Source of the DNA: Pleurocapsa sp. PCC 7319
GTDB lineage: Bacteria > Cyanobacteriota > Cyanobacteriia > Cyanobacteriales > Xenococcaceae
Direction: 5' to 3'
Assembly (NCBI RefSeq): GCF_000332195.1
Contig: NZ_KB235922.1
Span: 4,437,322 to 4,501,321, forward strand
Length of the DNA: 64,000 nucleotides
In this document: positions 42,687 to 55,226 of the stretch, one piece after another
How positions within the stretch are numbered: the first letter of the stretch is position 1
How the letters are laid out: each line of letters begins with the position of its first letter
Notes under the pieces: generated by a model
The model's database searches: none
Told to the model about the DNA's origin: nothing
The model's input: the letters and a program-made list of their open reading frames with translations, nothing else
Program-made: the position numbers and the translations under genes

Positions 42687-44087
42687 ATGAATCAGACCAA
42701 AAATTCAATAACGGAAAAATGCGACTTTGGAGATCAACGTTTAACCAAAAGGGCGATGTTCATCGAATCAAGATTATCGTTAAAATATGGCAAGCCACTC
42801 TCAGAGATTTTTGAGAGAGCAAGTGACCTGAAAAGAGCTTATGAATTCTTTGCCAATCCGAAAACTAGCTTAAGCAGTGTGTGCCAACCCTATCATCTTC
42901 AAACAGCAGCTCAGATTAAAGCACTCCCCATCGTATTAGCAGTGGGAGATACAACCTATCTCGATTACAAAAAAATCCTCGACAAAAGAGCCGAATATGG
43001 ACCGATTGGCAATGGGGGAAATGGACTAATTCTACATAGCACCTTAGCCCTTGATGCCGACAATGGACAACCAATAGGATTACTAACAGAAAAACTGTGG
43101 CATCGAGAGCATGAAGAAAAAGGGGAAAATCTAACGAAGAAACAGAGGAAGAAAAAACAAGCAGAAGCCAGAAAACGCCCAATTGAAGAGAAAGAATCTT
43201 ATAAATGGATAGAAGCTCTCAAAGAAGTCGAAAAACTCTTAAAAATCTCCGTTCCAGAGCCTACAAGGCCCAAAATTATCCATGTATTTGACCGAGAAGG
43301 GGACATTGCGGAAGTCTTTGCTCAAGTCAGTAAAACCTCAAATACAGGGTTAGTAGTAAGAGCAGCACATAATCGAGCACTTGAGGGAGAAAACAGTTAT
43401 CTATGGTCATGGCTACCATCCCAACCGATCAAGATGGAAGTAGCGATAGAACTAGCCAAAACCAAACAGAGGACAGAGCGAATCGCAGTTTTGGCAATTA
43501 GATATGCACCTATTAAACTTCGTAGTCCCGCCAGAATTAAAGAACCAGAATCTTTTGAAGTTTATGGGGTTTATGCCGTAGAAATTGACCCCCCAGAGGG
43601 CTGTGAACGCGTAGAATGGATGATCTTGACTACAGAACCCGTTACAAATGAGGAACAGGCACAAACCATTTTACGGTGGTACACTTACCGTTGGCGAATT
43701 GAAGAATATCATAAAATTCTCAAGTCAGGATGTAAGGCGGAAAGCTATCGTCTATCTGGAAATAGTATGCAGGTATTATTAGGATTTTTAACAAATATTG
43801 CGGCACAATTGTTAAAAATGACTTATTTAAATCGAACCGAACCAGAAGCACCGGCATCTTCGGTTTTAAATGAGGTACAACTTGAGGTTTTAGCTGCCAA
43901 AGGAAGAAAATCAGTCCCCGTAGTAGATTTGACGGTAGCCTGGGCGATGCAAGCTGTAGCTCGTTTGGGCGGTTACTTGAGTCATCGAAAGAAAAGTAAT
44001 ATTGGTATTACCGTTTTATGGCGCGGATTTTTAGAATTGCAATCTTTGTGTGAAGGATGGCAATTACGCTCCCATTTTAAAGTTTAG
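42687..44087 (+). CDS. IS4-superfamily (Tn5-like) transposase
   Basis: A full-length DDE transposase of 466 residues. The N-terminal Tn5-type DNA-binding part reads CDFGDQRLTKRAMFIESRL followed by DLKRAYEFFANPKTSLSS. Catalytic acidic residues are expected in VLAVGDTTYLDYKK, IIHVFDREGDIAEV and the Y-(2)-R-(3)-E-(6)-K motif YRWRIEEYHKILKSGC. No internal stop is seen and the terminal repeats are intact, so the element may be mobile. The ATG at 42687 keeps the DNA-binding domain complete. Confidence 0.93.
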   Translation: MNQTKNSITEKCDFGDQRLTKRAMFIESRLSLKYGKPLSEIFERASDLKRAYEFFANPKTSLSSVCQPYHLQTAAQIKALPIVLAVGDTTYLDYKKILDKRAEYGPIGNGGNGLILHSTLALDADNGQPIGLLTEKLWHREHEEKGENLTKKQRKKKQAEARKRPIEEKESYKWIEALKEVEKLLKISVPEPTRPKIIHVFDREGDIAEVFAQVSKTSNTGLVVRAAHNRALEGENSYLWSWLPSQPIKMEVAIELAKTKQRTERIAVLAIRYAPIKLRSPARIKEPESFEVYGVYAVEIDPPEGCERVEWMILTTEPVTNEEQAQTILRWYTYRWRIEEYHKILKSGCKAESYRLSGNSMQVLLGFLTNIAAQLLKMTYLNRTEPEAPASSVLNEVQLEVLAAKGRKSVPVVDLTVAWAMQAVARLGGYLSHRKKSNIGITVLWRGFLELQSLCEGWQLRSHFKV

Positions 44088-46877: not shown

Positions 46878-47181
46878 TAAGTTATTAAATAAAACTGTCT
46901 TAATTTATCGCTATCTTAAAAGAAATCAAATCATTCAAAAGTTATACTTCTGACGAGATCAAATAACCTCAGCATTAAAGTTTAAATTATGAGGAATTTA
47001 TTAGAAACTAAAATCATAATTTTATTCATTTAGATTCCCTAATTTGCAACTGTAATTTGATTTTAAAAATAATACGTTTGATGTCAATTATAAATGCCGC
47101 GGGGAACCCACGGCTACAGTCCCTCCGGAGGACAGAAGTTAATTTCACGAATGATTTAGATTGTTATATTAAACACATAAT
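46878..47181. other. Intergenic region with a GC-rich dispersed-repeat segment
   Basis: Mostly AT-rich. At about 47095-47137 a GC-rich stretch (GCCGCGGGGAACCCACGGC then CCCTCCGGAGGACAG) stands out and forms two small hairpins, like the small palindromic repeats elsewhere in this window. Confidence 0.55.
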
Positions 47182-50037
47182 TTAAGTTGACTCAAATAAT
47201 TTATTGCCACACTTAATACAAAATTTGCCATTTATAGGATTATCATGATTACAAATGCTACAAATATTCTGATTTTCGACTGTATTTGAAAGTTGAGCTA
47301 CATTCTGCTCAATATTTTCAGAATCATCCTGGATTCTTGTGTTAATCTGAGCGAATGATTGTGGAGTTTGTCTGAAAGTTAAGGAAGCGGTTTCACTAGA
47401 TACTTGGTTTTTGTGGGCAAGATGTTCCTTCAACATGTGGTGATAAAAAATGTAGCCACTACCAACCTTTTTCAATATTTGACGCTCAGCAGCATAATCG
47501 AGGAAACGAGCGTAATTCCAAGGCATACGATCTTGATGGTAAAGAATTAAGCGCAGGTTAAAGTGTTGGATGCAACTAACTCCACCGACGAGCAACCCAA
47601 CAAGACCTCCAAGACTGAAACCTTCTTTCAACCCAAAACTGAGACCTTCCCTCAAGCCAAAACTCATCCCAAAAATCAGTCCGATAATCAGCCCGACAAT
47701 CAGCCCAAAAATAATGGCATTCTTGGCAGAATTCCAAATTCCCTGATTAGGAATAGTTTTTTGTTCGACTTCTTCACTACCCAATCCACTTCTGAGTCCA
47801 AATATTAGTCCGCAAATTAATCCGCAAATTAATCCAAATATTAATCCCTCTTTAATACCAAAAAAAAGTCCAAAACTCAGCCCGTCGCTAAGTCCAAAAA
47901 TTAAGCCAAAAAATAGCCCAAAAATTAAGCCAAAGGATACTTCATCCATAATCCTAGACTGAGCTCTTTGCCATGACCAACTCATTTGCTCAAAAAAGGT
48001 GATTTTTGTCGATAATCCGGTAATTACGCCGCCAAAAATTCCGAGAATTAACCCCGGTATCCAGCCGAAACTTAAGCTAAGACACAGAGTAAAACATAGC
48101 CATCCCAATAGAAAATTACTAATTTGATAGCTTAATTTTTCATCTTGACTTTGAAGCAAGCTAGGTTGCATTTTCTCGATTAAAAATACTGTTTGTGATT
48201 GATGGACCATTGTTTGGGCTAACCAACTAAGCCACTGTATTACTTTGTTCTGAGGATATTTTGCCGAATCAGAATGCCATAATCTTCCCGATCTAATGAG
48301 TAGCATTCGCTTGATATAAGTATCAAATAAATGTTGTTGGCGATTTTTGGTTGAACGCAACTGCTTAATTAAATCTTTTGCTGACCAATCTTGATAAGCC
48401 CTAGTCATTAAATTGAGGTTTAGAGGAAGTTGGGCAAATTTTTCCAGTTCTTGATCCTCTGGCAAGAGTTTCTTTAAGCCTGTCAGTGAAGTACCTGCTG
48501 TGGTAACAACATCAGAAACTTGTTGCTTTGAAAGGGTCTGAATACTAATAGCACTACTAAGTCGTAAGCGTTCAGTCAGGGCTTCATAGTCTTTAAACCG
48601 ACTAGAAATGACGATTTCGGTATTATTATAAGTTGCGATAAATTTATTCAAATCCCGAACACAAGCATTGCGCAGTTCTTTGGTTTGTTTTTCATCATCT
48701 AATCCTGTCCCTATTTCATCTAACCCATCCAGCAGTAAAATCAATTGCTCCTGTTCCATCCAAGATTTACTCAAGGTCTTGGGAACTTGATATATTTCTT
48801 TTAGTTTTTCGATTAACCATTGTTCCATCGATTGTTCCTTTTGCCCCCAAGAAGATATGTTGAAGATTACAGGAATTGGCTTGGTTAAATCTTGTTCCGT
48901 CTGGTAGACCAAACGTTTGGCTAATTCTAATAGAGTAAAAGTTTTGCCCGAACCTAATTCTCCCAAAATTAAGAGAATTTTGCCTTGAGCTGTTTGATTC
49001 AAGATATCTGTTGATTGTAGTTCTTCAAAAGACTTGTCCAGTTCTGCCGGTATTTCTCCAATCCCATCAAAGTTAGAAAGTACTGCATAGGAACTAGTTT
49101 TCCAATCGAAGTCTACAGCAGAATTAGCTAATGAAGCAGACGGAAAAAAATTTTCGATCCAGAATTGTCGGACTTTATTTAATAGAATTTTACGCTGACT
49201 ACGTTCTTCCTCGGTTATAGCTTCGCGAATAACATTAGCTTGTCCAAAATTATCCCAAGTTCCCCTGACTTTGGCTCGATATCGCTTATAACGATTTTCT
49301 TTTTTAAGTGCTTCGATCAGCTTCGAGGGAAAATTGGACTGTGTGGATGAGTCTGGAGCGTCATTGCCAACAGTCGAGGTCAATTCCTCTGGGAAGAGAT
49401 TAAGATTTTGATTCTGCTTCAGAACTGGTTTTAAATGGTTGGGAATGAAAACTTGCTCAATGGCATCTAAAGCCTCAAAATTACGGCTGACTCCAGAACG
49501 ACGTGTACGTGAAGTATTGGCCTTGGCAATCTGAATTTGAATCGCATTGCGACCGAACATGTAAGACTCCTCAATTGATTTTCCCCAGCCTAAAGCTCGA
49601 TAAAATCCGATCGCAAAATCGAGAGCTGCATTATCTCTAATCTCCTGACTAATACCGATCACATATTTGATATGTTGAGCGATCGCATTAGCTATAACTT
49701 CGTTATAACAACCATCTAGTAAAACGCACTCAACCTTCTTCTCAAGAGAATCAAATAAATTAGATAAAGTATCTGGATTAACGACTTGTTCCTCGCCAGA
49801 ACTATTCTGGAGTATCAAATCATGCTCCTCGGTTCCCAATCCGCAAAAGTGAACAATTCTGGGTTCATGCTCTAGAAATACATCGTGTAACTCTTCTGGA
49901 GGTACAGCCAACCCAAACTGGGTCTCGAATTGCGACCGGTTTATAGAGCGTTTGATGACATTAATCAAGTCTTTGGTTTCTCGGTTTAACTTAAGATCAT
50001 GCCTGGGATTTGTGGTTAAAATCAAAATTTGCTTCAT
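47182..50037 (-). CDS. CHAT-like / NACHT NTPase / multi-transmembrane / zinc-ribbon protein
   Basis: A 951-residue STAND-type protein. Residues 1-200 resemble a CHAT (caspase-like) domain: RIVHFCGLG at 61-68 and VLLDGCYNEVIANAIAQHI with Cys110, then YVIGISQEIRDNAALDFA. The usual catalytic GHG histidine is Leu67 here. The NACHT domain has P-loop GELGSGKT at 359-366 and Walker B LILLLDGLDEIG at about 432-443. After the helical part come many GLIFGL-like repeats (about 640-840), a glycine-rich multi-helix membrane region. The C-terminus is a zinc ribbon, CSICNHDN and KFCIKCG. Ligand-driven oligomerisation at the membrane is expected by family analogy. Its neighbours are a caspase, a lipase and a wall peptidase gene on the same strand. 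Confidence 0.85.
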   Translation of the reverse strand: MKQILILTTNPRHDLKLNRETKDLINVIKRSINRSQFETQFGLAVPPEELHDVFLEHEPRIVHFCGLGTEEHDLILQNSSGEEQVVNPDTLSNLFDSLEKKVECVLLDGCYNEVIANAIAQHIKYVIGISQEIRDNAALDFAIGFYRALGWGKSIEESYMFGRNAIQIQIAKANTSRTRRSGVSRNFEALDAIEQVFIPNHLKPVLKQNQNLNLFPEELTSTVGNDAPDSSTQSNFPSKLIEALKKENRYKRYRAKVRGTWDNFGQANVIREAITEEERSQRKILLNKVRQFWIENFFPSASLANSAVDFDWKTSSYAVLSNFDGIGEIPAELDKSFEELQSTDILNQTAQGKILLILGELGSGKTFTLLELAKRLVYQTEQDLTKPIPVIFNISSWGQKEQSMEQWLIEKLKEIYQVPKTLSKSWMEQEQLILLLDGLDEIGTGLDDEKQTKELRNACVRDLNKFIATYNNTEIVISSRFKDYEALTERLRLSSAISIQTLSKQQVSDVVTTAGTSLTGLKKLLPEDQELEKFAQLPLNLNLMTRAYQDWSAKDLIKQLRSTKNRQQHLFDTYIKRMLLIRSGRLWHSDSAKYPQNKVIQWLSWLAQTMVHQSQTVFLIEKMQPSLLQSQDEKLSYQISNFLLGWLCFTLCLSLSFGWIPGLILGIFGGVITGLSTKITFFEQMSWSWQRAQSRIMDEVSFGLIFGLFFGLIFGLSDGLSFGLFFGIKEGLIFGLICGLICGLIFGLRSGLGSEEVEQKTIPNQGIWNSAKNAIIFGLIVGLIIGLIFGMSFGLREGLSFGLKEGFSLGGLVGLLVGGVSCIQHFNLRLILYHQDRMPWNYARFLDYAAERQILKKVGSGYIFYHHMLKEHLAHKNQVSSETASLTFRQTPQSFAQINTRIQDDSENIEQNVAQLSNTVENQNICSICNHDNPINGKFCIKCGNKLFEST

Positions 50038-50130
50038 TTAGATACTTGACTTCTCGACTAAAATTTGTATTTCTTGAGTAGCCCACTTTGCTTCAGGATC
50101 GGATTCATAAAACATAGCACGAGTCATCAT
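50038..50130 (-). pseudogene. Caspase-tail-like short reading frame before the NACHT gene
   Basis: Thirty codons whose core, DPEAKWATQEIQILV, resembles the last residues of the caspase gene upstream (NPNADWATQEIRLTV). Its TAA is immediately followed by the ATG of the NACHT gene. It may be the end of a deleted second caspase-like gene, or a real small protein coupled to the NACHT gene. No good ribosome site precedes it. Confidence 0.5.
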
Positions 50131-50337
50131 AAGGAAAATTATCTTCAAAGGTTTTATACGGGAGCATCCCACTTTTTCTATTAGGTAATTATACTTATTG
50201 TCAAAACGACCTTATTATTTCAGAAAATTATTTGCAAAAAATAAACTTGGAAAATGATGATATTTTGACTCAATAATATCTCTGAAGAAATAGCCCTCCC
50301 AAAATATTTAAAATTTAAAGAAGGACTAATCTAAAAA

Positions 50338-52485
50338 CTAACGTTTAACAGTTAGTCGTATCTCTTGGGTTGCCCAATCAGCATTAGGATTTGGTTTTGT
50401 TTTGGCTTTTCTAGTTATTACTGGAGGCTCGTCAATATCAGCTCCGATAGTAGATAAAAGATCGTTGAGAGGATTAATAGTTATTGTTTCACCTCTTGTT
50501 CTCATTTGCTCTGCTTGTTGTTCGAGTTCTCTATTAAGATTGCCTTTTGACTGCATATCTTTATCCAAAGAAGGAAGAAGCAACCATTGAAAATTGGCAA
50601 CTCCTTTAGTGGCAAAAACCTTCAGAGTTTCCTTGGCTTCTTCGTAACCTACTCTTTCTGGTAATTCAAATTCAAGTTCAATATCAGGGATTTGTTGATC
50701 GCGATCCAGTTGGAAAAAAGAAGCTTCAATATTTTGAATTGGAAGTTGGGAAATTTCCCAAGTTGGCTCTAAATCTAAGATAGCAACATTAAGAGCTTGA
50801 GGAAAAGTATTTCTCAGTCGTAAAAATACTGTTTCTCCTTGTTTCAGTTCAATGTTATTCGGATCGGCAAAAGCTTGCTTGTTGCGATCTAAAAGCTCAA
50901 ATTCTAAATACTCAGTTATTTTCGAGGCAGAATTCTCCAAAGCTTGCACGGATTGGTATTTAGCCAAATGAACTAAGCGATCGCACACTTTTTGCGGAGC
51001 GTCTGGATCTTCTATGCTTAAAGCTGGACGTAAGTTTTCGAGGGGCATTCCTATACAAATTTCATACGTGCTATCTCTGGCAACAGCCACCTGAAAGTGT
51101 CCTTCTTCTCCATCCTTGACTTCCACTACCCAACCATTACCTTTTAAGGCTTGACGTACTTTTTCTAAGGCTACTGTTTGTTTATCTACTAAATTTGTGG
51201 GTAAATCTTGTTCTTTATCTCCTGCCTGTTTGTTAGCAAATAAACGCACTTTCCGAATCAAATCTACAGGTGCAGCAACCATTACTGCTGAAGCACCAGG
51301 TTCGATTTTACCTTTAACCTCAATTCCTCCTGCTGCGGCATCTAAAATTTTGGCGGATGACTTATCCGCTTCAATATCGTCCGTCAGTTCGGCGATCGCA
51401 ATTTGTTGGGTTTTATCAGAAAAGTCGCTCACATCAACGGGATAAATCGCAAAGCGAGTACCACTACTTAAACCTGCTACCAAGCCTGCATCCAGGGTAA
51501 TTTCTTGACTATCTTGAGCCACCTTAATTACTGTTACGGTATAGGGTTTATATTCTCGTCGATCTCCAAATACCAGGCGATCACCATCCCCAATCAACAT
51601 GGGTAATTGTTGAGGAAACTTACTCTGAATCATGCCCTTAATCCTACTGTAGAGCGATTTATAGGTTAAGACAGAAGTACTGCTAGTTAGGGTATCCATC
51701 ATCCAATAAGTCAATGCACCATTGCGTTGTCCGCCATTCACTGCATACTCATAGGCATATTCTGTAGGACGACAGGCAGCTATGAATATATAATCCTTAT
51801 TTGGTAGCCAGCCACCAGAGAGATCGGGATCGACTTGAGTTAGAATGCGCCAGTTATCCAATAACTCTTGTCGTTCGGCAACCAAACTATCTTGGTTTCT
51901 AGCTGTACTGTCTACCAAATTATTTTCATTACCTCGAATGGCACAATCACCTCTGGTAGCTCCCCCAGAATGACAACTGTCAAAAATCACCGTCACAATA
52001 CATCCTTTATCATTGAGACGTTTGAGCAAAGTAGCCATCTCTACATCTCGCAGGTAGCGACCATCGGCATTGCCAATATCCATCGGCACAATCCCTTCGT
52101 CTTGTCGATGTTTCCCCTCTAGTTCGGGATAAATAGTTACTGCACGTCCACCATGTCCAGAGTAGTGAATGTATACTTGCTCTCCAGGATTAGCAACCGC
52201 AGTTATTTCTGCAAAAGCATTAACAATATTGGCATAGGTAGGGAGTATATTTCCTTGAGCAGCTCTAAATGCCGATAACTCATTGCTTTCTTCAACCGGA
52301 GCCGTAAGTTTCCAGATCTGTTCGGAAGGAACTCCCAGGGTATCCCGAAGATAGCTATCTACAAGATCTATATCCCGTACACATCCCCCCAAATTTTTAT
52401 ATAGTTGAGGGTAAGTCTGGATCGACTCGTAGTAGTTAATTCCAATTAGCAAAGCATAAAGTTTGGATTCATTTATGTTTGTCAT
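50338..52485 (-). CDS. Caspase-family (C14) protease with C-terminal accessory region
   Basis: A bacterial caspase/metacaspase-like protease of 715 residues. The p20-type domain occupies about 1-290: LLIGINYYES, the catalytic His111 in YIHYSGHGG and the catalytic Cys171 in IFDSCHSGGATRGD. Two loops rich in acidic residues follow. The middle (about 310-480) has beta-rich segments (DAGLVAGLSSGTRFAIYPVD). The last part (YLEFELLDRNKQAF, VFLRLRNTFPQALNVAILDL) resembles DUF4384-type domains often fused to such proteases. It has no membrane helix. Specificity is probably for arginine or lysine, by analogy with metacaspases. A heptamer repeat lies just upstream. Confidence 0.9.
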   Translation of the reverse strand: MTNINESKLYALLIGINYYESIQTYPQLYKNLGGCVRDIDLVDSYLRDTLGVPSEQIWKLTAPVEESNELSAFRAAQGNILPTYANIVNAFAEITAVANPGEQVYIHYSGHGGRAVTIYPELEGKHRQDEGIVPMDIGNADGRYLRDVEMATLLKRLNDKGCIVTVIFDSCHSGGATRGDCAIRGNENNLVDSTARNQDSLVAERQELLDNWRILTQVDPDLSGGWLPNKDYIFIAACRPTEYAYEYAVNGGQRNGALTYWMMDTLTSSTSVLTYKSLYSRIKGMIQSKFPQQLPMLIGDGDRLVFGDRREYKPYTVTVIKVAQDSQEITLDAGLVAGLSSGTRFAIYPVDVSDFSDKTQQIAIAELTDDIEADKSSAKILDAAAGGIEVKGKIEPGASAVMVAAPVDLIRKVRLFANKQAGDKEQDLPTNLVDKQTVALEKVRQALKGNGWVVEVKDGEEGHFQVAVARDSTYEICIGMPLENLRPALSIEDPDAPQKVCDRLVHLAKYQSVQALENSASKITEYLEFELLDRNKQAFADPNNIELKQGETVFLRLRNTFPQALNVAILDLEPTWEISQLPIQNIEASFFQLDRDQQIPDIELEFELPERVGYEEAKETLKVFATKGVANFQWLLLPSLDKDMQSKGNLNRELEQQAEQMRTRGETITINPLNDLLSTIGADIDEPPVITRKAKTKPNPNADWATQEIRLTVKR

Positions 52486-52540
52486 GATGTGAATCTATTA
52501 TTGTTTATCAAAATAAACTATTAGCAAATAACTTCTTAGA

Positions 52541-52608
52541 TGGCTAATGGCTAATGGCTAATGGCTAATGGCTAATGGCTAATGGCTAATGGCTAATGGC
52601 TAATGGCT
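52541..52608. repeat. Heptanucleotide repeat (TGGCTAA), nine units
   Basis: Nine exact tandem copies of TGGCTAA plus a partial one, between the lipase and caspase genes. The longest of four related arrays in the window. It is too short-period and spacer-free to be a CRISPR. Confidence 0.95.
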
Positions 52609-52667
52609 TTTTGATCTATTTGAACTTGAAAGGTTAAGAGCCTATAGCTAAGAGTCAAGCTTTTGAT

Positions 52668-54167
52668 CTAGCTATTAATATCGGCAACTTCAAACAGATC
52701 GTGAACTGGGTTGGGCGAATTTTCTCCTGTCTTTTCTGTAGTTACCTTCAGGCGATATAGACCAGGTTCAAGATTCAGAATCTCTGAATTAATTGACCAT
52801 TCATTACTTTGATTGACAAAATCTAGATTGATATCAGGACGGCGCTCAGAAACACAAACTAGATGACCTTTCAACGCCCCAAAATCTTCATCCCCATTAA
52901 TCTTAGCTTTAATCAAAATTGGTTCATTTTGGAGATAAAGATCGTCTAGCAAGAGACTAATACCTTTTTTTCCAGCTCGAATACTTCTGCCTTGTTTGCC
53001 ACGTCTACCTCTGATATCCTCCAATGTCTCACCAGTATCTTGGGACACTTGCATTTTGTTGAGTAAATTTAACAAAATATTTGGCTGATTTTGTAGAGAG
53101 CCGTGAGCTTCCGCTATGAAACTGGGAATTTCCAACACATCGCGATCGCTAAATTCGATTGGAAAAGCAGAAATCTGAGGCACTGTACCATCGCCATCAG
53201 CTAGACTTGCCAAATTTCTATTTTTCATGATTAACGGTAACTCTCTGCCAACTGTGATTTTTCCATTAGTAAATTCAGCAGATTGTAAAGTCGGTTGTTG
53301 TATACCGACAAAGGGAACTGTGGCATAGGAATCTGAATGAGTCTTAACTGCGGCTTCAATTTCCCTATGAAAAGCTAAAGCCTGATTAGCTTTTTCTTGG
53401 TCAATATTCGGTAGGTTGGCAACTTCGGCAACTCTTTTACTGGCTCCGTCAACTTGCAAAACAGGATAGATAGGCAACAACTGATAGATGGAAGTCAATG
53501 AATTAATAATCTCTCTCATGCCCAAAAGCTTCAGGAGATCGATTCCTTGCTTCCTAAATCCATTGGCAAGTACATCGATCGCATTTACCGAGCCACGGTA
53601 AGGAGTACCAAAAGTAAACAATGCTCTGGCATCTTTCCAACCCCCTAACACTTCTAAGTAATAGCGAGAGATTAATCCTCCCATGCTATGAGCCAAAAGA
53701 ATTACCTTGGCATCACTATTGCCGCTAGATTCCCGCCATGTTTTTAATCTTTTATCTAATAAACGTTTCAGGATATTAGCATTAGCACGATTATCCCGGC
53801 GCCAATCGTAGGGGAAATAATAAAAGTTAGCTACTTGGTCCTCAGGATCTTGGTAGATATCCCCTTTGATTACCTTGAAGTTATCAGTAATCAGCTTCGA
53901 AGTTTTGTCATAGCCATCTATTTTCCATAATCCAGGAATTAGATGAGTATCTTGAATCAAGCCAGTTGGTATGACACCATCATCAAGGTTCCCACCTTCT
54001 GGATCATCTCCTTCTAATTTTAAATCACCCAAGCGATCGCCCAAACTTCTTACTACTTGCCAGATTGCTTGACCGGAAACATTCCACAGGTCTTTACCAT
54101 CCTTTTGTAAGATGCTACCCATAATTCCGGGAAGAATTACCACCATATCTTTCATTTCAGTTGGCAC
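52668..54167 (-). CDS. LCAT-like alpha/beta-hydrolase (lipase/acyltransferase)
   Basis: A 499-residue protein related to lecithin:cholesterol acyltransferase. The N-terminal VVILPGIMGSIL is the oxyanion region. The nucleophile is Ser161 in ILLAHSMGGLISRYYLE, and FGTPYRGSVNAID and the later GDGTVPQISAFPIE segment carry the expected remaining features, with the acid and histidine further on (AEAHGSL). A C-terminal domain of about 110 residues is beta-rich (EWSINSEILNLEPGLYRLKV) and may bind a partner or lipid. The start is GTG, supported by AGGAG seven bases upstream. No signal peptide, so it may act from inside the cell. Confidence 0.87.
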   Translation of the reverse strand: MPTEMKDMVVILPGIMGSILQKDGKDLWNVSGQAIWQVVRSLGDRLGDLKLEGDDPEGGNLDDGVIPTGLIQDTHLIPGLWKIDGYDKTSKLITDNFKVIKGDIYQDPEDQVANFYYFPYDWRRDNRANANILKRLLDKRLKTWRESSGNSDAKVILLAHSMGGLISRYYLEVLGGWKDARALFTFGTPYRGSVNAIDVLANGFRKQGIDLLKLLGMREIINSLTSIYQLLPIYPVLQVDGASKRVAEVANLPNIDQEKANQALAFHREIEAAVKTHSDSYATVPFVGIQQPTLQSAEFTNGKITVGRELPLIMKNRNLASLADGDGTVPQISAFPIEFSDRDVLEIPSFIAEAHGSLQNQPNILLNLLNKMQVSQDTGETLEDIRGRRGKQGRSIRAGKKGISLLLDDLYLQNEPILIKAKINGDEDFGALKGHLVCVSERRPDINLDFVNQSNEWSINSEILNLEPGLYRLKVTTEKTGENSPNPVHDLFEVADINS

Positions 54168-54302
54168 TAATCATCTCCTGTTACAAAAATAGAATTCGAT
54201 TCTGAAACTAAATAAATGAATATATAAATAGAAGACTTGATAGCTAATTAACCCTGATATTTCAAGTCTTCTTCCAGCCAAGCATTTTATAAACCAAGTA
54301 TT

Positions 54303-55226
54303 TTAAGCAAAAAGTTTAGCGAGAGTATTCGCTCCAACTACACCATCTACATTAATACCAGAATTTTCTTGAAACTGTTTAACAACCGTGGCTGTTCCCT
54401 TGCCATAATAACCGTCAGGTACAATGCTATATCCATGATCTTGTAATGCTTTTTGAACTTTGAAGACATCAGAACCTTCCGTCATTGGAGTAGTGAGCTT
54501 AAGCAGTCTCGGTTTTTCGTCCCAGGGAGCAATTTTAAATCCATAAGCAGGTGATTCATTCAAACTACGTTCCGTATTGGGTCCCCATACTCCATCTACG
54601 GTAAGTGTTTGACCGGGATTATTGTTATTCCATAATTGTTGGAAAGCTTTCATGGTTGCTTGGCGAATATCTTGGGCACCAGTGCTAACATAATCAAAAT
54701 GAGGCTTGTCCCGGGGACCAAACCATCTCCAGCTATGTTTTTTGAGGTAAGGTTGCCAACCAGTATGATCGTTAATATCAAGAGCTAACCCGCTTTGATG
54801 GTTGCTTCTTCCAGGTCTGGCAACAATCGGATAGCCACAACTTCTGCCCCAGTTAAATAATAGTAATTGCTGGGCAATTGTTCTATATCCAGAGTTAACT
54901 GTCATTGTTCTACCCCGCTCCTGAATCGCTTTAGCCAGAGCTGTTTTGGCCGGGGCTTGAAGATAGGGAAAGGCAGCCTTATTAAGATTTACATTCAGCT
55001 CTTCAAAACTAACCAATATATTAGGAAACATTACATTCATCTGATGAATCAACTGCTGGGACAAAGCATTACAAGCAGAAGTTGAACAGCCAGGAGTATT
55101 TTTAATTAGACCCGAATATGATTTAGCTTGGTCATCAAATGCCTCATCCTCACGATTATGAACTTCACCACAAAGTTCTGATTCATAGTCATACCAGTCT
55201 GGTAGTTTTAATTCGATATCTTTCAT
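54303..55226 (-). CDS. M15-type D,D-peptidase with peptidoglycan-binding domain
   Basis: A predicted cell-wall peptidase of 307 residues. The catalytic zinc domain (VanY/D-Ala-D-Ala carboxypeptidase family) shows VNSGYRTIAQQ, RSNHQSGLALDIND with the metal His and Asp, and WRWFGPRDKPHFDYV with the second histidine. The C-terminal region has a possible degenerate PG-binding repeat (FQQLWNNNNPGQTLTVDGVW) and a clear PG_binding_1 motif (VQKALQDHGYSIVPDGYYG, FQENSGINVDGVVGANTLAK). The ATG at 55226 has an ideal GGAGAAG site. An upstream TTG (55280) would add 18 hydrophobic residues. Without those there is no signal peptide. It is the first gene of the putative cluster, 135 bases before the lipase gene. 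Confidence 0.85.
   Translation of the reverse strand: MKDIELKLPDWYDYESELCGEVHNREDEAFDDQAKSYSGLIKNTPGCSTSACNALSQQLIHQMNVMFPNILVSFEELNVNLNKAAFPYLQAPAKTALAKAIQERGRTMTVNSGYRTIAQQLLLFNWGRSCGYPIVARPGRSNHQSGLALDINDHTGWQPYLKKHSWRWFGPRDKPHFDYVSTGAQDIRQATMKAFQQLWNNNNPGQTLTVDGVWGPNTERSLNESPAYGFKIAPWDEKPRLLKLTTPMTEGSDVFKVQKALQDHGYSIVPDGYYGKGTATVVKQFQENSGINVDGVVGANTLAKLFA

Follow-up and report, generated by a model that had tools for sequence, protein, structure and literature searches.

Within a 64,000-nucleotide stretch of the genome of the cyanobacterium Pleurocapsa sp. PCC 7319 (hereafter, the window), we analysed a cluster of four adjacent genes that encode a peptidoglycan peptidase, an LCAT-like lipase, an orthocaspase and a CHAT-like/NACHT protein. 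Several described systems come close to it, and what is said of them here follows the openly accessible parts of the papers cited. In the vWA-MoxR (VMAP) ternary systems, for which cyanobacteria are among the hosts, the caspase gene always lies next to an alpha/beta-hydrolase gene, and lysozyme-like and papain-like wall peptidases are listed as effectors of another system, NucA/EAD1 (Kaur et al. 2020, eLife 9:e52696). The effectors of systems with Death-like domains (EAD systems) include a caspase and an alpha/beta-hydrolase that hydrolyses membrane lipids, and caspase effectors are also linked to STAND genes (Kaur et al. 2021, eLife 10:e70394). In bacterial gasdermin operons, a protease of the caspase type adjoins an effector that damages membranes; endolysin-like genes, for lysozymes or amidases, are sometimes found near bacterial gasdermins, and mimicry of holin-endolysin action has been proposed (PLoS Pathog 2022, PMC9612521). 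In the CARD-NLR-like system LypABC of Caulobacter, an NLR-like ATPase and proteases control lysis, and CARD-NLR variants with phospholipase effectors are cited in the same report (Banks et al. 2026, PMC13236601). Finally, metacaspase operons and metacaspase-amidase fusions link a caspase homologue to a peptidoglycan hydrolase, which was proposed to speak for a role in cell death (Asplund-Samuelsson et al. 2012, PMC3501461).

Recurrence of the neighbourhood across genomes

The four genes belong to a neighbourhood that recurs in modular form. Its parts are an orthocaspase subfamily and an LCAT-like lipase, accompanied by wall hydrolases of the endolysin type (one or two) and by a membrane protein that is either CHAT-like or CHAT-NACHT. 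The genome of the window has 7.39 Mb in 10 contigs (G000; G, L and C with numbers denote the genomes compared, loci and contigs, respectively), and the cluster is located on contig C7, within positions 4437322-4501321. A preliminary description of this DNA had reported four adjacent genes on one strand, and all four open reading frames and their families were present on the minus strand, in the 5'-to-3' order M15 peptidase with a peptidoglycan-binding domain, LCAT-like hydrolase, caspase and NACHT protein. The intergenic gaps are 135, 182 and 300 bp; the earlier values of 135 and 300 bp stood, and the middle gap, given as 500 bp, had to be corrected. The active-site motifs of the M15 peptidase, lipase and caspase are complete, as are Walker A and Walker B of the NACHT protein, and the cluster contains no additional minus-strand open reading frame of 80 amino acids or more.

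We searched 388 genomes of the class with a lipase profile built from 7 lipases (E <= 1e-40) and a caspase profile built from 14 caspases (E <= 1e-90). The lipase was found in 17 of the 388 genomes and the caspase subfamily in 26 (28 places). Both were present together in 12 genomes as compared with 1.1 expected (Fisher 2e-12), a co-occurrence that is partly circular in that 10 of the 28 caspase places were model rows found next to lipases. The distance between the two genes was at most 4.3 kb in 10 of these 12 genomes, the exceptions being G257 (different contigs) and G418 (fragments).

The association with wall enzymes is less circular, given that the caspase model was built regardless of them and that 18 of the 28 places lie outside the model. 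We examined 16 non-model loci, counting the tandem caspases of G257 as one locus and excluding the G418 fragment. A wall hydrolase (GH24, M15 or papain-like C39) was present upstream on the same strand at 11 of them: G393, G329 (a fragment), G257, G336, G442, G355, G033, G290, G255, G343 (contig C249) and G004. Addition of the model loci gave 16 of 26 caspase loci of the class. Among 33 distinct caspase loci, 17 have a same-strand wall hydrolase, which in all 17 cases lies upstream and within 3 kb; G024 and G295 carry one on the opposite strand, and an astacin-like LysM gene in G394 was left uncounted. The Pfam model for GH24 gave 67 matches in 32 genomes, of which 12 (at 11 loci) were within 5 kb of the caspase, compared with 0.11 expected.

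Gaps were measured in 11 selected relatives: 10 of the 23 were 40 bp or shorter, some being 2-9 bp. In G497, a member of the same family, the genes for the lipase, the caspase (74% identical) and the NACHT protein stand in the order of the window, and the contig ends just before the lipase. Conservation of the neighbourhood had been proposed as a check in the preliminary description, and homologues of the four genes do adjoin one another in several families of the class, in differing orders. Chance adjacency, which the same description had considered possible, is disfavoured by the genome-wide counts, namely those of GH24 near caspase (12 versus 0.11) and of close lipase-caspase pairs (10 of 12).

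Features of the four proteins and their surroundings

The caspase has a p20-like domain with a His-Cys dyad, as is characteristic of orthocaspases, and the solved structures nearest to it by sequence are metacaspases. His111 and Cys171, already described as intact, are invariant in 31 distinct caspases including that of the window, and hydropathy showed no transmembrane stretch. Three full-length relatives are located on named plasmids, in Allocoleopsis, Calothrix and Nostoc. Variants and neighbours of the subfamily were also observed. In G370 (L071:11470-14814), within an M15-lipase-caspase cluster, the caspase carries an entire serpin domain as a fusion (residues 753-1113; Pfam Serpin, E 1.5e-71), so that a protease is joined to a protease-inhibitor fold. 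In G257 (L084:8257-16431), two caspases of the subfamily stand in tandem ahead of a 1223-amino acid protein with three caspase-domain matches and TPRs. In 6 genomes, a member of a family of ~450-amino acid proteins (L064:9777-11132; L080, L082, L089, L090, L109) is encoded no more than ~6.5 kb from the caspase; one copy has a signal-like N-terminus and transmembrane segments by hydropathy, and two scanned copies had no Pfam match. Two proteins of 253-255 amino acids near caspase loci (L084:16519-17280 in G257 and L072:10162-10929 in G343) are 59% identical. Their length is about what we take to be that of a gasdermin, and they were considered and set aside as such: there was no Pfam match above the cut-off, no PADLOC match and no significant sequence match in PDB.

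The lipase is an alpha/beta-hydrolase of the LCAT/PLA2G15 type, with a match to the LCAT profile and a Ser-Asp-His triad in the motifs AHSMGG (Ser161), GDGTVP (Asp326) and EAHGS (His355), and the solved structures nearest by sequence include PLA2G15 and LCAT. The triad is invariant in 7 aligned rows. No transmembrane call was made by hydropathy, the moderately hydrophobic N-terminus being the first strand of the protein, and the lipase is probably cytoplasmic. Lipase genes were also found without a caspase: on a conjugative plasmid of Sphaerospermopsis, with a GUN4 protein and a HEAT protein of the NACHT/NPHP3-like kind as neighbours, beside an AAA/NACHT-like protein on a Rhizobium plasmid, and in G135 with transglutaminase-like and NB-ARC-TPR neighbours. 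The lipase thus accompanies protease or NTPase modules of other kinds as well, which gives it the look of a portable effector. Related loci in named genomes numbered only two, both in Streptomyces, and at one Streptomyces locus, outside the class, a gene for a CHAT protein lies directly upstream of the lipase gene. A second lipase module (L036 and L069; L035, L039 and L040 by eye) combines a transglutaminase-like DUF553 protein, with Pfam matches in L069 and in one L036 protein, with STAND-type NTPases (NB-ARC, NACHT/NPHP3-like, nSTAND3, AAA), and occurs in cyanobacteria and on a Rhizobium plasmid. A viral origin was considered and rejected: viral contigs yielded only distant relatives of the lipase and caspase (25-31% identity), and phage records, searched with the lipase and not with the caspase, gave no match.

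The wall-enzyme slot is swappable, with different endolysin-type enzymes being present in different genomes. The window M15 peptidase matches Pfam VanY (E 3.5e-9) and PG_binding_1 (E 7.6e-20), and the His, Asp and His of its motifs SNHQSGLALD and DKPHF are invariant in 11 aligned rows. M15 stands alone in the window and in G442 (a short contig), and is accompanied by a GH24 phage lysozyme in, for example, G240, G022, G336 and G033. GH24 is paired with C39 in G355 and G290, C39 is alone on contig C249 of G343, and M74 is paired with GH19 in G231; the GH24 of G370, G377 and G393 is broken or fragmentary. The window M15 matched the phage-endolysin family PHROG 2649 ('endolysin', E 2.5e-32), and the best phage family for the G240 GH24 was PHROG 7, endolysin (E 1.7e-60). 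By hydropathy, the window M15 has neither a transmembrane nor a signal-like stretch, and none of nine wall enzymes of relatives has a transmembrane segment or signal-like N-terminus. The preliminary description had seen no clear signal peptide in the effectors; for this, hydropathy gives an indication only, and the lipase N-terminus is moderately hydrophobic. At a further locus, L142, GH24 and C39 belong to the same subfamilies as the caspase-linked enzymes, and this endolysin pair may also travel alone. An M15 subfamily present only beside caspases was considered and dropped: the top 10 places in a search of the 388 genomes were all caspase-adjacent, but all 10 were model rows, making the result circular, and the tree pairs the window M15 with one that lacks a caspase neighbour.

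The fourth protein is probably a STAND switch at the membrane. It contains a NACHT domain (Pfam E 1.4e-9; 38.4 bits versus a cut-off of 26.7) with Walker A at residues 359-366 and Walker B at 434-441, as expected of a NACHT-type STAND NTPase, and at least five hydrophobic segments by hydropathy between about residues 639 and 785. Six full-length relatives are 42-49% identical to it. All parts named in the preliminary description (CHAT-like, NACHT, multi-transmembrane and zinc ribbon) were recognised, with two reservations. The first concerns the CHAT part, which scored 16.5 bits in Pfam, below the cut-off of 24, and matched the PADLOC 'chat' model with E 1.4e-13; the CHAT domains of two scanned relatives exceed the Pfam cut-off. 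The motif HFCGHG is present in 10 of 12 copies compared and reads HFCGLG (Leu67), with DGCY, in the window. The His of this motif is, we assume, the CHAT catalytic residue. The pair of catalytic His and Cys of an active CHAT protease is therefore incomplete, and with Leu in place of His the domain is probably not catalytic and probably serves in binding or oligomerisation. The second concerns the zinc ribbon (CxxC pairs, 926-943), which was found in the window copy only among 12 pattern-scanned rows, one of them an N-terminal piece. GLxxGL-type repeats that vary among relatives lie in the hydrophobic segments of the C-terminal half, which could conceivably be channel-like or pore-like.

A CHAT-NACHT profile of 9 rows, with the best two candidates per genome scored in the 388 genomes, gave at least 11 near-full-length places (1164-1585 bits) in at least 10 genomes; other listed places scored 710 bits or less and matched only from about model position 238, that is, without the CHAT part. 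Eight of the 11 listed full-length places lie within 3 kb of a lipase or caspase. The idea that the CHAT-NACHT subtype occurs only in the cluster was rejected, as 7 of these 8 are model rows and only 1 of 4 others is adjacent; the other non-model places are two in G336, with the caspase on another contig, and one in G180, with neither lipase nor caspase.

Table 1. Features of the cluster, with positions in the window.
Feature	Position	Strand	Basis or remark
CHAT-like (His->Leu), NACHT NTPase, Gly/Leu-rich multi-transmembrane region and C-terminal zinc ribbon	47182..50037	minus	Pfam, PADLOC, motifs, hydropathy
Orthocaspase with long conserved C-terminal region	50338..52485	minus	Pfam Peptidase_C14 E 9.7e-17
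LCAT-like alpha/beta hydrolase, predicted phospholipase/acyltransferase	52668..54167	minus	Pfam LCAT E 7e-18
M15 (VanY-like) peptidase with C-terminal peptidoglycan-binding domain, endolysin-type	54303..55226	minus	ATG start; 55280 with TTG start
Perfect 7-bp tandem repeat, ATGGCTA x 9.9	52540..52608	none	Tandem Repeats Finder; lipase-caspase gap, ~55 bp upstream of caspase start
Terminator-like hairpin	47096..47114	minus	Pattern scan; just downstream of NACHT gene; possible end of unit

The repeats noted earlier inside the cluster were the tandem repeat listed in Table 1 and 12/24-bp repeats within the NACHT gene; variation in copy number of the former could alter expression. Promoter and terminator scans of the region showed no excess over chance (9 terminator-like sites versus 7.9 expected), and the window had no Rfam match at gathering scores. 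Within the window, PADLOC was applied to the four cluster genes. The scanned neighbours resemble housekeeping genes (glycerate kinase, Na/H exchanger, transporters), and a transposase gene with Tn5-type dimerisation and DDE matches is located at 42687-44087, ~3 kb beyond the cluster.

A recurrent arginine motif, the proposed mechanism and its alternatives

The motif Arg-[Gly/Ala/Ser] recurs in the proteins of the neighbourhood. Arg184 of the caspase, 13 residues after the catalytic Cys, is invariant in the 31 distinct sequences and is followed by Gly in 22 and by Ser in 9. Compared with 2000 shuffles, in which kinship is ignored, the motif was present in the loop after Cys171 in 31 of 31 caspases (shuffle mean 18.6, maximum 27) and in the variable C-terminal linker in 27 of 31 (mean 14.3, maximum 22). 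Just before the lysozyme domain, 11 of 12 caspase-linked GH24s carry it (shuffles 4.9), as compared with 4 of 21 GH24s away from a caspase (shuffles 7.4); these controls are 21 of 55 such matches, and one of the 4 (G343 C135) belongs to the same subfamily. In the linker between the catalytic and C-terminal domains of the lipase, Arg-[Gly/Ala/Lys] was counted by eye in 19 of 22 readable sequences (the linker of G257 being cut off), including 13 of the 14 with a caspase neighbour (G231 has Lys-Gly). Distant relatives of the caspase cleave after Arg or Lys, and bacterial gasdermins are cut after Leu or Arg (PMC9612521). Given the recurrence of the Arg motif and this preference of distant relatives, we propose that the caspase is self-activating and sets its partners free; the sequences suggest, as a hypothesis, that Arg-[Gly/Ala/Ser] linkers are sites of caspase processing.

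Divergence was correlated between caspase and lipase and between caspase and NACHT protein (6 of 5000 permutations each), more strongly between lipase and NACHT protein (r 0.97, n=7, 20 of 5000), and also between M15 and GH24 (r 0.62, n=8, 67 of 5000). This pattern suits a core of switch, protease and lipase with an exchangeable pair of wall enzymes.

From sequence we consider it reasonably probable that the cluster is a regulated cell-lysis (suicide) module, in which a STAND-controlled orthocaspase would unleash a cytoplasmic lipase and endolysins for defence or development. The NACHT protein would be the trigger: in response to a signal of stress, be it phage infection or a cue from development or damage, it would oligomerise at the membrane and activate the caspase. 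The caspase would process itself and then cut its partners at the Arg-[Gly/Ala/Ser] linker sites, and the freed lipase would attack the inner membrane from the cytoplasmic side, in the role of a holin. Such an attack on the membrane would allow the cytoplasmic endolysins to reach the wall, and the cell would burst. The lipase as hole-maker and the cleavage at Arg are the least certain steps. More tentatively, and with somewhat less than even confidence, we suggest that cyanobacteria possess a complete lysis cassette of their own. In it, an NLR-like switch and an orthocaspase would unlock, through cuts in the shared Arg-[Gly/Ala/Ser] linkers, a cytoplasmic lipase that stands in for a holin or gasdermin, together with phage-type endolysins (one or two), so that a single protease would fire the attacks on membrane and wall at once.

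Several observations weigh against these readings. The whole set of wall hydrolase, lipase, caspase and CHAT-NACHT was found in only 4 of the 388 genomes (G000, G240, G231 and G377), and in G377 the NACHT gene is split by an insertion and GH24 is broken. Most caspase loci carry only part of the set: of the 26 examined in the class, 10 are without a same-strand wall hydrolase upstream, 16 without a lipase and 4, one of them on a very short contig, without any partner, and both wall hydrolase and lipase are absent from the loci of the three plasmid caspases. In G497 the gaps are 822 and 518 bp, and an opposite-strand open reading frame of 114 amino acids lies between lipase and caspase. Of the four listed full-length CHAT-NACHT places outside the model, one (G319) adjoins a caspase, and the CHAT-like part looks degenerate in the window. 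In a tree with 10 other M15s, the window M15 pairs with one not beside a caspase (support 0.868) and is not clearly inside the caspase-linked clade; likewise, a GH24-C39 pair (L142:4745-6735, contig C135 of G343, 8.6 kb) lies on a contig on which no caspase was recognised. Distances between caspase and M15 and between caspase and GH24 were not significantly correlated (338 and 516 of 5000). With regard to the motif, the shuffle statistics ignore a kinship that inflates motif counts, the signal in M15 N-termini is weak (9 of 11; shuffles 5.6), and lipases without a caspase neighbour also carry it in 6 of 8 cases (none in G091 and G283). An invariant Arg so close to the active site may be structural, and the accessible part of the MaOC1 paper gave no support on the cleavage site. 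Finally, caspase-hydrolase and caspase-STAND pairings are already described in other systems.

Among the alternatives, the one that survives best, though we regard it as unlikely, is that the same machinery serves developmental lysis and not defence, killing chosen cells of the filament (necridia, hormogonium release) or remodelling septa. A protease combined with hydrolases of wall and lipids fits the programmed killing of cells in filaments, and the scanned window neighbours look like housekeeping genes. A review of cyanobacterial death, in its accessible part, recognises an autolytic form in which the peptidoglycan layer is lost early. The patchy distribution (lipase in 17 and caspase in 26 of 388 genomes), the decayed parts (GH24 fragments in G370, G377 and G393) and the lipase and caspase relatives on plasmids resemble, however, those of conflict genes more than those of core developmental genes. 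Less probable still is a loose cluster, in which abundant caspase, CHAT and STAND genes gather in variable regions without forming one system. Composition and order do vary by locus, the gaps are 135-300 bp in the window and larger in G497, and 4 of 26 caspase loci have no partner; against this stand the 12 GH24 matches near caspase where 0.11 were expected, the closeness of lipase and caspase in 10 of 12 genomes, the upstream position of all 17 same-strand wall hydrolases among the 33 distinct loci, and gaps of 2-9 bp in some relatives. Lipases and peptidoglycan hydrolases are common interbacterial effectors, and a G062 neighbour has a weak Tlde1-type match (E 0.0066, below the cut-off), but that the lipase and wall enzymes are exported, type VI-like weapons separate from the caspase and NACHT protein is very unlikely, given that hydropathy showed no signal-like N-terminus in the wall enzymes checked and that no secretion or immunity gene was seen among the scanned window neighbours, where no model search was aimed at such genes.

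For the lysis-module reading, the theme that the preliminary description had drawn from this DNA, a switch joined to effectors against protein, lipid and wall, gains strength beyond what sequence alone had shown, as different enzymes of the endolysin type occupy the wall-enzyme slot in different genomes. With regard to the targets of cyanobacterial metacaspases (orthocaspases) and the execution of programmed death, the cluster offers candidate substrates next door to the caspase (lipase, M15, GH24 and C39), together with a candidate trigger and candidate cleavage sites. If the reading is true, the cluster would be a gasdermin-free bacterial counterpart to pyroptosis-like lysis.

Comparison with known systems

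The VMAP systems share with the cluster a caspase and an alpha/beta-hydrolase, the hydrolases being matched by description only. Unlike VMAP, the window cluster includes endolysins and has a membrane protein of the CHAT-like/NACHT kind as its NTPase, and no MoxR, vWA or VMAP gene was found among the cluster genes and the three nearest neighbours scanned. EAD systems, as far as the accessible text describes them, couple their components through Death-like adaptor domains; features of the cluster are a NACHT-type protein and endolysins. Gasdermin operons are defined by a gasdermin gene next to a protease; in the window cluster no gasdermin was recognised, and an LCAT-like lipase stands in the place of the pore. 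LypABC is described with a trypsin-like peptidase and CARD; in the cluster, the protease is an orthocaspase and endolysins are present. The described metacaspase-amidase cases are few and involve an amidase, and the accessible text includes no GH24/M15-caspase-lipase-NACHT cluster among them.

M15 and GH24 of the cluster type match phage endolysin families and in this respect resemble the phage holin-endolysin cassette; unlike that cassette, the cluster is host-encoded and contains a protease and an NTPase, with no holin recognised. In the openly licensed literature, as far as its accessible parts extend, we came upon no account of an orthocaspase combined with GH24/M15 endolysins, an LCAT-like lipase and CHAT-NACHT, in agreement with the earlier statement that this exact combination was not known as a described system. 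The gasdermin-free combination, which we thus found undescribed there, brings together pairings that do have precedent: caspase with alpha/beta-hydrolase, caspase with STAND NTPase, and, in the gasdermin systems, gasdermin with endolysin-like genes.

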